The translations under genes were made by a program, and so were the position numbers. Source: a virus. Taken from it: 24,279 nucleotides of DNA. The stretch spans positions 1 to 24,279 of IMG/VR virus record IMGVR_UViG_3300043438_002448, one strand, 5' to 3'. Positions 1-22,134 of the stretch are shown in pieces (positions within the stretch are counted from its first letter, which is position 1; every line of letters begins with the position of its first letter). The notes under the pieces were generated by a model that saw only the letters and a list, made by a program, of their open reading frames with translations, was not told the origin of the DNA and did not search any database.

Positions 1-543
1 ATCAATAGTAAAGTTATTCAAACGAGAATCTTGAGCTCCAAATGAACTTCCGTTTCCGTTTGCGTTATACTTTGTAATACCATCAATTGTTCTTGCACCC
101 GCAATTGGGATGTTTTGTAAATCTCTACGAGTAAATTGTTGAGATGCACCTGTTCTGTCTTTAGAGAATAGATTGTTTCTTGTTCCAGTTACAACCACAT
201 CTTTAAGAGAGGATTTCTCATCAATTAAAATAAAGTCTACATTTGATGTTACACCTAATTGAGTGTTTACATCTTTCTCTTCACCTTTCTTAAATCCTAC
301 AAATGAAGCATGGATTGTGTATGGGCCACCTACTCTTACGGCAGGTAATACATAAACACCATTTTTGTTTGTTACGGTTTTGTACTGAGTACCCGTTGGC
401 GTGTGAGTAGCGTGAATTGATGCACCTACTAACACTTCTTGTTTTTCGTTCTTAACAACACCTGAAACAGTTGATGTGGTAACTTGACCAAATCCTACTA
501 ATGCAAATGCCGAAAGAGCTAACGATAGAATCGTTTTTTTCAT
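1..543 (-). CDS. TonB-dependent outer-membrane receptor, Oar-like (partial, N terminus only)
   Basis: The frame opens with an ATG at 543 and runs off the left edge, leaving 181 visible codons. Residues 1-20 form a classical signal peptide (MKKTILSLALSAFALVGFGQ) with likely cleavage just before the Gln, as is common in Bacteroidota. Residues about 24-100 look like a carboxypeptidase-regulatory-like beta-sandwich (start SGVV, then GASIHA, TNKNGVYVLPAVRVGG, ending DVVVTG). After that the start of a TonB plug follows (QQFTRRDLQNIPIAGART, then SSFGAQDSRLNNFTID). This order is that of Bacteroidota TonB receptors of the Oar type, which sit in the outer membrane and import ligands using TonB. The gene lies 18 nt beyond a strong terminator and has an A-rich leader (AACAAAAACAAAC) with no Shine-Dalgarno. 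A receptor in a phage genome is unexpected. The beta-barrel lies outside the window, so whether the gene is intact cannot be judged. Confidence 0.85.
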   Translation of the reverse strand, partial: MKKTILSLALSAFALVGFGQVTTSTVSGVVKNEKQEVLVGASIHATHTPTGTQYKTVTNKNGVYVLPAVRVGGPYTIHASFVGFKKGEEKDVNTQLGVTSNVDFILIDEKSSLKDVVVTGTRNNLFSKDRTGASQQFTRRDLQNIPIAGARTIDGITKYNANGNGSSFGAQDSRLNNFTID

Positions 544-560
544 GTTTGTTTGTTTTTGTT

Positions 561-593
561 AAAAAATAAAAGGGTGGAGATTATCCACCCTTT
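561..593 (-). terminator. Rho-independent terminator after the H1-like gene
   Basis: A perfect 10-bp inverted repeat pairs 569-578 (AAAGGGTGGA) with 584-593 (TCCACCCTTT) around a 5-nt loop. Read on the minus strand the stem is followed at once by TATTTTTT (568-561). It begins 5 nt after the stop codon of the H1-like gene and ends 17 nt before the ATG of the receptor gene. It is the only clear intrinsic terminator I found. It should end the transcript from the promoter at 805-836 and so set the receptor gene apart from its neighbours, unless there is read-through. Confidence 0.85.
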
Positions 594-598
594 AGGGT

Positions 599-781
599 TT
601 ATTGACTGCTTTTAGTTTCTTCTACTGATGCCTGACGATAATCTGTGACTACTTTTTTTAAGTCACCAATTAAGGTTCTTGCGTTTTTTTGCGATACTTT
701 TGTTGTCTTGTTGTGTTCTTCTTCGAACTTACTAAACAATTCTTTCATTGTTTGAAATAGTTCTTCTTTTTTACTAGCCAT
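599..781 (-). CDS. Histone H1-like (Hc1-type) small basic DNA-binding protein
   Basis: A 60-residue, lysine-rich, helical protein. The centre (residues about 28-50, KVSQKNARTLIGDLKKVVTD then YR) resembles the pattern of Bacteroidota and chlamydial H1-like proteins, in which a KxGTRxRKxLxELKKL segment is followed by acidic and basic helix. Family members bind DNA without sequence specificity and compact the nucleoid. Here it could package phage DNA or condense host DNA. It is a single-gene unit: it has its own promoter (805-836) and is followed by the terminator at 561-593. The start at 781 is the only reasonable Met, and the leader is A-rich (AACAACAAAAAACAGCAATT). The match is short, so a generic small basic phage protein remains possible. 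Confidence 0.6.
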   Translation of the reverse strand: MASKKEELFQTMKELFSKFEEEHNKTTKVSQKNARTLIGDLKKVVTDYRQASVEETKSSQ

Positions 782-804: not shown

Positions 805-836
805 TAAATATACGAAAGATTTTTGATATTACCAAA
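805..836 (-). promoter_or_regulatory. Promoter P1 (Bacteroidota-type) for the H1-like gene
   Basis: On the minus strand TTTG (836-833) is followed after exactly 20 nt by TATATTTA (812-805), close to the Bacteroidota -33 TTTG / -7 TAnnTTTG consensus. The -33 box is extended as TTTGGTAAT, and the bases before the -7 box read CTTTCG. The same extended layout with the same 20-nt spacing recurs at 2821-2852 and 22135-22166. The -7 box ends 23 nt before the ATG of the H1-like gene. Confidence 0.7.
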
Positions 837-2804: not shown

Positions 2805-2820
2805 ATTATCTGTTTATGTA

Positions 2821-2852
2821 TAAATATACGACAAATATTTTAAATTACCAAC
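2821..2852 (-). promoter_or_regulatory. Promoter P2 for the iscU-ferredoxin-iscA operon
   Basis: On the minus strand GTTGGTAATTTA begins at 2852 and is followed by TATATTTA (2828-2821). The distance between the four-base -33 box and the -7 box is 20 nt, as in P1 and P3. The bases before the -7 box read TTTGTCG. The GGTAA extension doubles as the last codons of the upstream gene (TGG TAA). The -7 box ends 16 nt before the iscU ATG. Confidence 0.7.
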
Positions 2853-12451: not shown

Positions 12452-12889
12452 TTATTTTTTATAATTTTCTATATAATCGGAACATATTCCTACGCATTTA
12501 CTCAAATCATCATTATGTATTTCCGGCATAACTGCGATACTACCTTTGATTGGTTGTTTGCCAGGATATGCCCAAACTACATTCATTGACGTAAGTGTTA
12601 GAGTATCTCCTTCATGCCAAAAATAGTGATAACTATTAAGTATATTAAACCATTCCACTGCTTCTATATTTTTACAATGAATCCACAAATGTTGTATTCT
12701 TTCACTAAACCAATGTTGTGAAACACCATATTGTGGTTTATCGTGTCCTAAAAATAATTGACCTTCTACCATCCATACATCCACTTCAACATTAAATCCA
12801 TCTGATATTGCTTTATCAATATACATTGGTTCGTTTTCATATGATTCAAACTTTCCGTTTGTGTTTCCTCTATGTGATATTAGTATCAT
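12452..12889 (-). CDS. Glycerophosphodiester-phosphodiesterase-like (GDPD/PLC-like) protein
   Basis: A short protein of 145 residues that keeps the start of the GDPD TIM barrel: ISHRGNTNG (H6, R7), YENEPMYIDKAI (E18/E20), FNVEVDVWM (E35, D37) and LFLGHD (H49, D50). These are the HRG..EN, ExD and HD motifs that bind metal and phosphate. The usual length is about 240-300 residues, so the second half of the barrel is reduced. Related short proteins occur next to capsule and lipopolysaccharide genes. It could hydrolyse a phosphodiester in a glycan precursor or a glycerol-phosphate substituent. The ATG overlaps the TGA of the fusion gene before it (ATGA) and the aminotransferase gene follows after 4 nt. 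Confidence 0.75.
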   Translation of the reverse strand: MILISHRGNTNGKFESYENEPMYIDKAISDGFNVEVDVWMVEGQLFLGHDKPQYGVSQHWFSERIQHLWIHCKNIEAVEWFNILNSYHYFWHEGDTLTLTSMNVVWAYPGKQPIKGSIAVMPEIHNDDLSKCVGICSDYIENYKK

Positions 12890-14250
12890 TTCTTATTTTC
12901 TAAATAATAATTTAAATCTTCTGGTGTACCCAGCCCCCACATCTTTTCGATGTTAAATGTTTTAATTTTTTTACCATCTCCAATTGCTTCATTGAAAGTA
13001 GGACAAGTATAAAATTCATTATTGGTTCTGATATTCTTTTCAATCATTTGCTCTGCATACTTTACATAATCGGAACCTTTGGCCCAATAGTAAACACCAA
13101 CAGTTGCGATATCTGAAATTGGATTCTTCTCTGCTACTTCGGTAACATACCCATATTCATCTAGTTTAGCGAATGACCATTTAGGGTGTGTTGCTTTGAA
13201 TGTTAAAATACCACCATCTACTTTTTGTTCAATCATCTTATACATAAACTCATTACTATCCCATTCTACAAATTGGTCGGAGTTTGCCATAACTAATGGT
13301 TGGTCATTATCAATGTATTCTTTCGCTAATAAAGTGGTACACGCTGCACCTTCGGTAATACCATCAACTTCTACTATTTTACAACCAGGTGTAATTAAGT
13401 TAAGTAATGTATCTAAATTATATTTTGCTCTATGTTCTTTCTGAACTACATAAATGTATGTTGCTTCTATATTAAGATTGTCAACTACAACCTGTATCAT
13501 CGGTTTTCCCTGTACATCAATTAGAGGTTTTGGGAATGTGTAACCCGCTTGTTGAAATCTGCTTCCGGCTCCTGCCATTGGGATAAGAACATTCATCTTA
13601 CCACCTTGCCATTTTGGTATATTCATAGTATTTTGTGTTTCATCTAATTTACTAATAATTTTTGATATTACCAAATCTTTTGGAGAATCCACTCTTAAAA
13701 CATTTGCTCTACTTCTACTTGCTGCTAATAGTCCATGTGGAGAATCTTCTACAATCAAAGTTTCTTCAGGCAAACATCCCATCATACTCATAGCCTTCCA
13801 ATACATTTCAGGATGCGGTTTAGAGTTCTTTACATCCTCATTGGAGATGATTAAATCCATATACTCAATTATACCTATCTTTGCTAACATAACTAATACA
13901 GACCTTCTAATTGAGTTTGAAGCACATGCTAACTTATAACCCCTATCTCTCAATTCCTTAAACAATTCAATCTTTTGTAAGTCAGGTTGTAATTGTGAAA
14001 TAGCTTCTATCGTTAGATGTTGCTTTCTATACCAAATATCATCATAGAATTCTGGGTGTAATCCTTTATTCTTTGTAAGTAGTTCTAATTTTTGTGTTGT
14101 CTTTAATCCATCATATATTGAAAGATGTTCTGCTTCTGAAATTACATATTTTTCATCAATTTCTTTTAGAGCTTCGTTTAATGTATCATAGTGTATTTGT
14201 TTTGCTTCTACTAATACACCATCTAAATCAAATATAATTAATTTTGTCAT
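12886..14250 (-). CDS. HAD phosphatase / sugar nucleotidyltransferase fusion
   Basis: A 454-residue two-domain enzyme. Residues 1-205 form a HAD phosphatase of the beta-phosphoglucomutase type: IIFDLDGVLVEA (D8, D10), ASNSIRR, KPHPEMYWKAM (K144) and VEDSPHGLLAA (E168, D169). Residues 219-454 form a nucleotidyltransferase: MNVLIPMAGAGSRFQQAGYT with G227 and R231, FPKPLIDVQGKPMI, GAACTTLLAKEYI, MANSDQFVEW and WGLGTPEDLNYYL. This makes a sugar-phosphate handling protein that could activate a sugar as its NDP or CMP derivative and also dephosphorylate a precursor. I start it at 14250, where the ATG overlaps the preceding TGA as ATGA; the upstream ATG at 14268 adds only six residues. Both halves look intact. 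Confidence 0.88.
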   Translation of the reverse strand: MTKLIIFDLDGVLVEAKQIHYDTLNEALKEIDEKYVISEAEHLSIYDGLKTTQKLELLTKNKGLHPEFYDDIWYRKQHLTIEAISQLQPDLQKIELFKELRDRGYKLACASNSIRRSVLVMLAKIGIIEYMDLIISNEDVKNSKPHPEMYWKAMSMMGCLPEETLIVEDSPHGLLAASRSRANVLRVDSPKDLVISKIISKLDETQNTMNIPKWQGGKMNVLIPMAGAGSRFQQAGYTFPKPLIDVQGKPMIQVVVDNLNIEATYIYVVQKEHRAKYNLDTLLNLITPGCKIVEVDGITEGAACTTLLAKEYIDNDQPLVMANSDQFVEWDSNEFMYKMIEQKVDGGILTFKATHPKWSFAKLDEYGYVTEVAEKNPISDIATVGVYYWAKGSDYVKYAEQMIEKNIRTNNEFYTCPTFNEAIGDGKKIKTFNIEKMWGLGTPEDLNYYLENKK

Positions 14251-14990
14251 TTTCCGTATTTTTGCCAATCGTTATGTTTAAATAATCCTTCACCATGTGC
14301 AACACCATATTCTTGTTGTGCCCACCACTTACTAATATTTCCTTCTAATGCAATTCCTTCACCTGCAAATTGTCTAACTGTTTCTAAATAAAAATCTTTC
14401 TTATACATTGTTGGGTTATTAGTCCAATTACCCCAACGAGATGTTGTTGTAAAGTATTGTCCTAATTTTTGTATCTTATCTGGAAATTCAACGGATGGGT
14501 CTAACCAATGTAATGAGTCCAATAAGTGTGGAGAGGTACATTCTATTTCTGGGTCATAATAAGTAAGTTCTTTTCCTATATTTCTGAATGAAAAATGTGG
14601 ATTACCTGGTTGTTGTCTATGTCTATATCTAACGGCGTTCATACCACATCCATCTAATAACTTAATACCATCTTCTAATCTCTTATATGTAGTTTCTGAA
14701 TTTTCAATTAAATTCCAATCATGTTCTAATACTAAAACGTAATCTTCTTTTGCATTTTCAGTTAATCTAATAAATGCTTGACCTATTCCGATATTTTTTT
14801 GTAAACCTATGAAATCTAATCCAAAGTGTTTTGCAATTTCCATATCTTGCGGTGTTACTTCTTGAAATAGAATCGTAACATCGTTTACCATATCGAATAA
14901 CCCATTTTCATAATATGTAGTTAGTGTATCCACTAATACTTGTCCACTATGCCAGGACAATATTCCTATACTAATTGGTAGTTTTTCCAT
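14247..14990 (-). CDS. Glycosyltransferase family 2-like protein, 247 aa
   Basis: The N terminus LPISIGILSWHSGQVLVDTL is the typical first strand and helix of GT2 enzymes. GLQKNIGIGQAFIRLTENAK forms the NxGxxxxxN-type region, and YVLVLEHDWNLI (E89, H90, D91) takes the DxD position. C-terminal FTTTSRWGNWTNNPTMYKKD and EGNISKWWAQQEYGV resemble the acceptor part. No membrane segment is present. The start at 14990 overlaps the end of the preceding transferase by 20 nt. The sugar is not predictable. Confidence 0.78.
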   Translation of the reverse strand: MEKLPISIGILSWHSGQVLVDTLTTYYENGLFDMVNDVTILFQEVTPQDMEIAKHFGLDFIGLQKNIGIGQAFIRLTENAKEDYVLVLEHDWNLIENSETTYKRLEDGIKLLDGCGMNAVRYRHRQQPGNPHFSFRNIGKELTYYDPEIECTSPHLLDSLHWLDPSVEFPDKIQKLGQYFTTTSRWGNWTNNPTMYKKDFYLETVRQFAGEGIALEGNISKWWAQQEYGVAHGEGLFKHNDWQKYGK

Positions 14991-21242: not shown

Positions 21243-22127
21243 TTAATTTAAATTTTTTAATCCTCTATCACACAATCCTCTATGAAAAAACTCACACCAT
21301 TCACATAGTTTGGTTGCGTTCTTTGGGTACTCTATTTCGGTTTTATAATTACCATCTTTGTCAAATACACTCTCTACAAAGTCCGTAAAACCTTTCCATG
21401 CTTTATTCACCGATACCTTACCATTTGCAGGTACATGTCTACTAATTCTATGTGTTGGGATATCCTCTCTTACTTCCACTTTTCTTTTCAAAATGATAAA
21501 TTCAACATCAATCACATCTTCGGAAATACTTAGTAATTCTGCATAGAACTTTTTGTATAATAAGATTTGTGCACTTTTAACAGGGTCTGATTTTTGATAC
21601 TTACTCCAACCTCTTGTAGAAGTCTTAAAGTCAATGATTCTATATCTACCATTAAAGGTGTCTCTGATAATCAAATCTATGAAACCCATAAAGTTTACAT
21701 TCTCTGAAATCTTTGTGTTTATAGGTTGTTCAATTGCTACCAACTCATCGTGTTTTAACGAAAAGAATTTGTTAAAGTTTTTGGGTTTTTGGAACCAATC
21801 TAATAAGACATTTCCATCTTCTAAAAACTCTACCATTTCTTCTTTGGTGCATATTGTAGTATTCCCTATTTCTCCATCAGTTTCTTTAAGATATGCATCT
21901 CTCATTCTTTCTTTTAAATACTCTCGTAAATCAATCATCTTGTCAGCTTGTGACTTTGATATTCTTAAACATTTCTCCAAATAATTTTGAAGTGTTTCAT
22001 GCATTGCAGTTCCAAAGATTGAATGAATATTAGACGATGATTCACCTAATTTATCTATGTATGCTAATTTGTATTGTTGTGGACAGTTATGCCACATACT
22101 ATATTGTGAAAATGATACTCTTGCCAT
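21243..22127 (-). CDS. PD-(D/E)XK nuclease, RecB/Cas4-like, with probable Fe-S cluster
   Basis: A 294-residue nuclease. It opens with MARVSFSQYSMWHNCPQQYK (C15). FGTAMHETLQNYL (H43) is the RecB-type motif I, E133 lies in VAIEQPI, GFIDLII gives D151, YRIIDFKTS gives D166 and K168, and SAQILLYKK gives the Gln-x3-Tyr motif (Q187, Y191). The C terminus LCEWCEFFHRGLCDRG supplies C275, C278 and C286. With C15 this is the one-plus-three cysteine layout of AddB/Cas4-type [4Fe-4S] nucleases. I start it at 22127, not 22148, because the -7 box of promoter P3 lies between the two Mets and the family begins at this motif. It likely acts in phage DNA recombination or processing. Confidence 0.88.
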   Translation of the reverse strand: MARVSFSQYSMWHNCPQQYKLAYIDKLGESSSNIHSIFGTAMHETLQNYLEKCLRISKSQADKMIDLREYLKERMRDAYLKETDGEIGNTTICTKEEMVEFLEDGNVLLDWFQKPKNFNKFFSLKHDELVAIEQPINTKISENVNFMGFIDLIIRDTFNGRYRIIDFKTSTRGWSKYQKSDPVKSAQILLYKKFYAELLSISEDVIDVEFIILKRKVEVREDIPTHRISRHVPANGKVSVNKAWKGFTDFVESVFDKDGNYKTEIEYPKNATKLCEWCEFFHRGLCDRGLKNLN

Positions 22128-22134
22128 AATAAGT

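Follow-up and report, generated by a model that had tools for sequence, protein, structure and literature searches.

Genes and repeated sites in the window

The window, i.e. the whole stretch of DNA analysed here, corresponds to one entire IMG/VR virus record (24,279 bp), and is probably a fragment since the record is called linear. According to the ORF layout, its main genes are all encoded on the minus strand, and among them are T4-type clamp-loader genes, a PD-(D/E)XK exonuclease gene, an IscU gene and glycosyltransferase-like genes, one of which was matched in annotated phages. At one end (positions 1-543, minus strand) lies the N-terminal part of a gene for a TonB-dependent-receptor-like outer-membrane protein, full-length relatives of which (1093-1096 aa, CarboxypepD_reg plus OMP_b-brl_4) are found in related phage records (L108:16113-19403; G035 163477-166758 in reverse-complement coordinates).

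Three look-alike sites on the minus strand had been reported by the first-pass annotation, and a search with the pattern TTGGTAA-N16-TATATTW located exactly these three (P1 to P3, Table 1), all on the coding strand and none on the other, versus a mean of 0.01 and a maximum of 1 in 100 dinucleotide shuffles of the window, none of which had three. The gap of 20 nt given for them holds when counted from TTG and fails when counted after GGTAA, where it is 16 nt; the N16 of the scan pattern proposed at the same time is the right spacing, and TTTCG, TTTGTCG or TTTGTCT does stand ahead of the box as described. An E. coli-type promoter scan of the window yielded no excess (25 versus 24.3 in shuffles).

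Table 1. Sites, genes and other features located in the window
Feature	Position	Strand	Description
P1	806..835	-	TTGGTAATATCAAAAATCTTTCGTATATTT; TTGGTAA-N16-TATATTT; exact match
P2	2822..2851	-	TTGGTAATTTAAAATATTTGTCGTATATTT; iscU-ferredoxin-iscA unit, iscU ATG 2804; exact match
P3	22136..22165	-	TTGGTAAATCCAATTATTTGTCTTATATTA; TTGGTAA-N16-TATATTA; exonuclease gene ATG 22127; exact match
P4	13645..13674	-	One mismatch (TAAATTA box); in HAD / NTP-transferase linker
60-aa Hc1/histone-H1-like gene	599..781	-	3' of P1, ATG 781; Pfam Hc1 22.7 bits, just below the cut-off of 23.5
Terminator-like hairpin	569..593	-	After P1 gene; ~1.5 expected from shuffles, weak call alone
Packed gene series behind P2	837..2804	-	iscU, ferredoxin-like, iscA-like, two hypothetical genes; from ORF layout
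PD-(D/E)XK exonuclease gene	21243..22127	-	3' of P3; heads a long run of tightly spaced genes
Fused HAD hydrolase / NTP-transferase gene	12886-14268	-	Domain borders; P4 in linker
Internal ORF, 246 aa, NTP-transferase domain	12886..13626	-	Predicted from P4 transcript, inside fused gene

From P1, a transcript is predicted to start at ~800 with a leader of 19 nt upstream of the Hc1-like gene, and the hairpin behind this gene suggests that the P1 unit is a single gene; orthologous sites are present in G001, G031, G035 and G038 (our labels for related phage records). P2-type sites precede iscU and P3-type sites the same exonuclease gene, each in 6/6 genomes. The iscU product has a Pfam match to the NifU_N domain, while the ferredoxin-like and iscA-like genes behind it were named from their translated sequences only. 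The predicted P3 start at 22130 is 3 nt ahead of the ATG and so near-leaderless. For P4 the predicted start is 13639, giving a 13-nt leader to an internal ATG. Its place in the linker is occupied in five relatives too, which suggests a second, shorter product of the fused gene, with the reservation that P4 overlaps coding sequence, so the protein may account for part of the conservation.

The motif recurs at a rigid spacing and on one strand in related phages

More copies at operon starts elsewhere had been proposed as the test of the motif, and this was run in related genomes, in records gathered through the P2 IscU protein. Copies were found, and the motif was not refuted: whole-record scans detected it nine times in G031 (238 kb), 10 times in G035 (209 kb) and 12 times in G038 (78 kb), repeatedly also in G001 and G002, and nearly always on a single strand per record. 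In a core set of six related phage records (0.65 Mb), a refined weight matrix identified 110 coding-strand sites versus one on the other strand in its final round at 16 bits. Iteration of a matrix favours conserved sites, but less selective seeds agreed with the matrix; with the 10-mer TTCGTATATT as the sole seed, TTGG emerged 5' of it (T 31/31, T 30/31, G 28/31, G 30/31). Many of the sites are orthologous and not independent, the 88 linked to an ORF falling into 43 gene clusters, and it should be borne in mind that the gene calls are simple and the records may be incomplete.

The spacing is fixed. Across the six core records, TTGGTAA and TATATT were 16 nt apart in 43 cases and stood at every other spacing tested in 0-2 cases, and the opposite-strand profile was flat. 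When the two half-motifs were scored independently, 99 pairs fell at one offset, none at the four next shorter or three next longer offsets, and only one on the other strand at the favoured offset. The exact pattern TTGG-N16-TC-N-TATATTW matched 88 times, in 23 of the 34 phage records and never on both strands of a record, versus one match for the reversed control and none for the pattern lengthened by one base; throughout IMG/VR, at least 120 stretches had the right spacing versus 17 at spacing +1. Chance similarity would have to be sought in the base composition, as the DNA is about 31% GC and single elements are common in it. The shuffles and the strand, spacing and reversed-pattern controls refuted it, leaving this explanation a negligible probability.

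The class behaves as specific to phages, as the first-pass annotation had supposed for a class at transcription-unit starts: recurrent in phage records, the full pattern showed no excess in 15 Bacteroidota genomes (56 Mb; six matches versus five for the reversed control). In 400 kb of Pedobacter DNA, plain counts of the TTG..TAnnTTTG spacing did not peak clearly at any distance, which precluded a host logo. Almost all of the 80 cellular IscU matches kept are from Bacteroidota, which makes a Bacteroidota host likely, and the phage group carrying the TTGGTAA class is a widespread one of T4-like viruses, probably of Bacteroidota. In Flavobacterium phage immuto, an isolated relative, the TTG-N20-TATATT frame recurs, with TTC before the box and no GGTAA. 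About 20 similar copies, GTTGC...TTCnTATATTTAGGTATC(AATAATTAAAAC), stand before small genes in immuto (NC_055915.1 60,900-76,200), a block that is likely an early module.

The sites combine host-like elements with phage-specific extensions

The 110 sites define a conserved stretch of ~31 bp with the consensus A-T-TTGG-TAA-T-n-T-c-AAAAA-TTTTTCG-TATATT-(T/A)-(G/A), in which ~16 of 33 bits of information lie outside the canonical boxes. Bacteroidota promoters recognised by sigma-ABfr carry TTTG at about -33 and TAnnTTTG at -7 (PMC7366714, PMC9723704). We numbered the sites by placing TAnnTTTG at -12 to -5, as published for a flavobacterium (PMC9723704), so that TTTG occupies -36 to -33 and the predicted start falls 5 nt past the -5 base. 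The proposed match of the -33/-7 elements to the Bacteroidota sigma factor was borne out, in that TTTG and TA..TT fall at matching positions and the predicted start lies 5 nt after the box as in sigma-ABfr promoters; the four bases of TTTG are present at 95, 110, 110 and 102 of the 110 sites, respectively, and TA and TT of the box are invariant. The bases described as additional and conserved are likewise real, namely GTAA after TTTG and TTTCG ahead of the box.

In other respects the phage sites depart from those of the hosts. Promoters of F. johnsoniae show little sign of a -33 element and hardly vary at T-12, A-11, T-8, T-7, T-6 and G-5 (PMC6847099), and the spacing in host promoters is variable (PMC7366714); the phage class, in contrast, has a near-invariant -33 element, a fixed 20-nt distance from TTG to the box, the extra GTAA and TTTCG, and a weak T-6 (61/110, 55%) and G-5 (46/110, 42%). 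Use by host genes, which would be expected of ordinary sigma-ABfr promoters, was not seen in the 15 genomes. Because of the weak T-6/G-5 and the variable host spacing, plain sigma-ABfr recognition of the phage sites is not certain.

Sites mostly lie close before genes and about a quarter of the predicted leaders are absent or minimal

Of the 110 sites, 88 are followed within 160 nt by an ATG that opens an ORF of 40 aa or more, and an ORF start was found within 41 nt for 67% of sites versus 25% of random positions. Most sites lie no more than 60 nt upstream of genes, including those for DNA polymerase, exonuclease, UV endonuclease and IscU. The commonest distance from box to ATG is 5 nt (15 sites), which puts the ATG on the predicted start. 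Leaders of 0-3 nt are predicted for 25/88 sites (about 28%), which look leaderless, with a binomial p of about 6e-12 that is too small because orthologous sites are counted as independent. For comparison, leaderless transcripts make up 5.5% in F. psychrophilum (PMC9723704), and in B. thetaiotaomicron about 3.7% of leaders are shorter than 10 nt (PMC7366714).

Besides the exonuclease gene and iscU (6/6 each) and the Hc1-like gene (5 genomes), a DUF4494 gene and genes for SSB, a PolA-like polymerase, UvdE and an AAA ATPase, among others, recur behind the sites. In G031 and G038, tandem sites stand upstream of a tmRNA and of large tRNA arrays, and in G035 upstream of a tRNA array. The phage-encoded tmRNA has a tag ending in YAVAA (L086:18753-19123, L110:66-430), and arrays that reach ~25 tRNAs, again with tandem sites upstream, occur in L086, L087, L096, L110 and L113.

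A repressor operator or a replication-related repeat could also be conserved as strongly over ~31 bp, yet such an element would hardly explain the strict coding-strand orientation, the constant position ahead of start codons and RNA genes, the matched -33/-7 geometry, or an ATG exactly 5 nt past the box in 15 cases. We thus consider it very improbable that the sites are anything of this kind instead of promoters.

Virion genes mostly carry a second, late-type box

Upstream of virion genes in G031, G035 and immuto, a different element, the late-type box (A/C)TATTTATA, stands out, with coding-strand versus other-strand counts of 30 versus 5, 37 versus 4 and 28 versus 3, respectively. Classified through annotation by homology to immuto, the virion genes of G031 and G035 together had the late box in 19 cases and the TTGGTAA class in two, while the non-virion annotated genes had the TTGGTAA class in six cases and the late box in one (Fisher p=0.0005). 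Both virion exceptions are the portal gene gp20, which carries the TTGGTAA class in G031 and in G035. The genes behind TTGGTAA sites are pre-late in type, which largely supports the first-pass idea of a phage-specific class, of which middle timing and control by a phage factor may be features. A single TATA box, no -33/-35 element and placement at virion genes, the marks of T4-type late promoters, characterise (A/C)TATTTATA and not the TTGGTAA class, whose sites are bipartite and mostly away from virion genes. Masking both classes left no third promoter class visible in the core phages' non-coding DNA.

In the iscU promoter P2, the box TATATTTATA includes a complete late-type box ATATTTATA (window 2819-2828), as in 5/6 of the orthologous sites, and P2 may possibly serve as a dual pre-late/late promoter.

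As in T4, where late promoters have a late TATA box and depend on gp55, the second class is accompanied by an encoded gp55-like sigma candidate, a conserved 230-aa protein (G031 128403-129095; immuto 78174-78872) with many relatives in phage contigs. The immuto protein weakly matches the late-sigma family phrog_234 (E 0.008). An AlphaFold model of the 230-aa protein (pLDDT 80, pTM 0.46) superposes best on T4 gp55 from the gp55-RNA polymerase complex (Z 10.2 over 119 residues, 5.0 A), with other sigma factors ranked just behind; a Z of 10 in a helical protein is no more than suggestive of a gp55-like sigma. Other sequence comparisons were negative: hhalign of three gp55-like proteins against T4 gp55 gave a non-significant probability of 5.6% (E 0.007), a sequence-profile search of solved structures retrieved no sigma factor, and neither Pfam sigma-70 region 4 nor phrog_12791 matched. 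Foldseek against the PDB returned nothing at E<0.001, with many sigma factors in the top rows. Presumably, the (A/C)TATTTATA class is read by this phage gp55-like sigma factor.

A probable pre-late promoter class and how it may be read

The sequences show a motif that is rigid, strand-biased, regularly placed, associated with particular genes and specific to phages; from this we infer promoter activity, host sigma use, timing and start sites, and we are fairly confident that the TTGGTAA class comprises the pre-late (early/middle) promoters of this T4-like Bacteroidota phage group, built from host sigma-ABfr elements plus phage-specific extensions. In the mechanism that we propose from sequence, host RNA polymerase with the primary sigma-ABfr would recognise TTTG (about -36 to -33) together with TA..TT (-12 to -7); G-32, TAA (-31 to -29), the A-tract/T-tract spacer and TTTCG (-17 to -13), held at a rigid distance, would add phage-specific strength or selectivity; and transcription would begin ~5 nt past the box, on or at most 3 nt from the ATG in about a quarter of cases. 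Virion genes would mostly use the second class with its single box (A/C)TATTTATA, presumably via the gp55-like sigma. The rigid spacing and the ~16 bits outside the boxes suggest one more contact, in which the partner may be the polymerase itself or a phage factor, and we give about an even chance to the extensions being read by a phage protein.

T4 has early promoters that need no viral factor, middle promoters that use MotA and AsiA and a box at -30, and late promoters with gp55 and the late TATA box (PMC6024815); judged from its genes, the TTGGTAA class would by analogy fill the early and middle slots. One way of reading it is as early promoters, strong and optimised for host sigma-ABfr without any phage factor, like those of T4, with extensions that add strength only. 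The host-like bipartite elements fit this, as do the immuto small-gene block (61-76 kb), which shares the TTG-N20-TATATT frame and TTC before the box, and the lack of another class in the masked non-coding DNA. The class nonetheless departs from host promoters at -6/-5 and in a spacing far more rigid than theirs, and the pattern has no excess in the 15 host genomes, so that we rate this reading just short of an even chance.

The class could, with a probability rather below even, instead represent true middle promoters, silent until an early protein is made, on which an activator or sigma-remodelling factor, unrelated to MotA/AsiA though like them in function, would contact the extended -33 element and redirect the host polymerase. 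Like T4 middle promoters, the sites form a separate class before replication, nucleotide-metabolism and other metabolic genes, pair a conserved element around -30 with a downstream box at constant distance, and coexist with, and are distinct from, a gp55-type late class. This reading is also favoured by the rigid spacing, by the absence of host use and by the ~16 bits carried outside the canonical boxes, as well as by the near-invariance of TTTGG despite so faint a -33 element in F. johnsoniae promoters (PMC6847099). Against it, the sequence differs from that of T4 middle promoters, no candidate activator was identified, and Pfam models of MotA and AsiA had no match in five related records and immuto, though the records may be incomplete and any MotA or AsiA relatives too diverged to match. 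Moreover, no separate early class was found in the core phages, so the TTGGTAA class, if middle, must serve early genes too. As a bolder and tentative proposal, which we hold somewhat less likely than its opposite, a phage factor unrelated to MotA/AsiA may redirect the unusual Bacteroidota RNA polymerase to the rigid TTTGGTAA...TTTCGTATATT, giving these phages a middle-type switch of their own in which about a quarter of mRNAs are leaderless.

With its pre-late and gp55-type late promoters, the TTGGTAA-carrying group suggests that the T4 scheme has been rebuilt on a divergent polymerase. The transcription programmes of T4-like Bacteroidota phages are little described, and our literature search found no promoter map for them. 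A motif this sharp should allow transcription units, starts, leaderless genes and probable timing to be predicted from sequence in many metagenomic phages, and it offers a template for finding a possible activator as well as candidate phage promoters for Bacteroidota. A DksA-like gene (DnaK suppressor in the immuto annotation) lies at NC_055915.1 60988-61395 and has a relative in G031 (84624-84881); its product is a possible transcription modulator.
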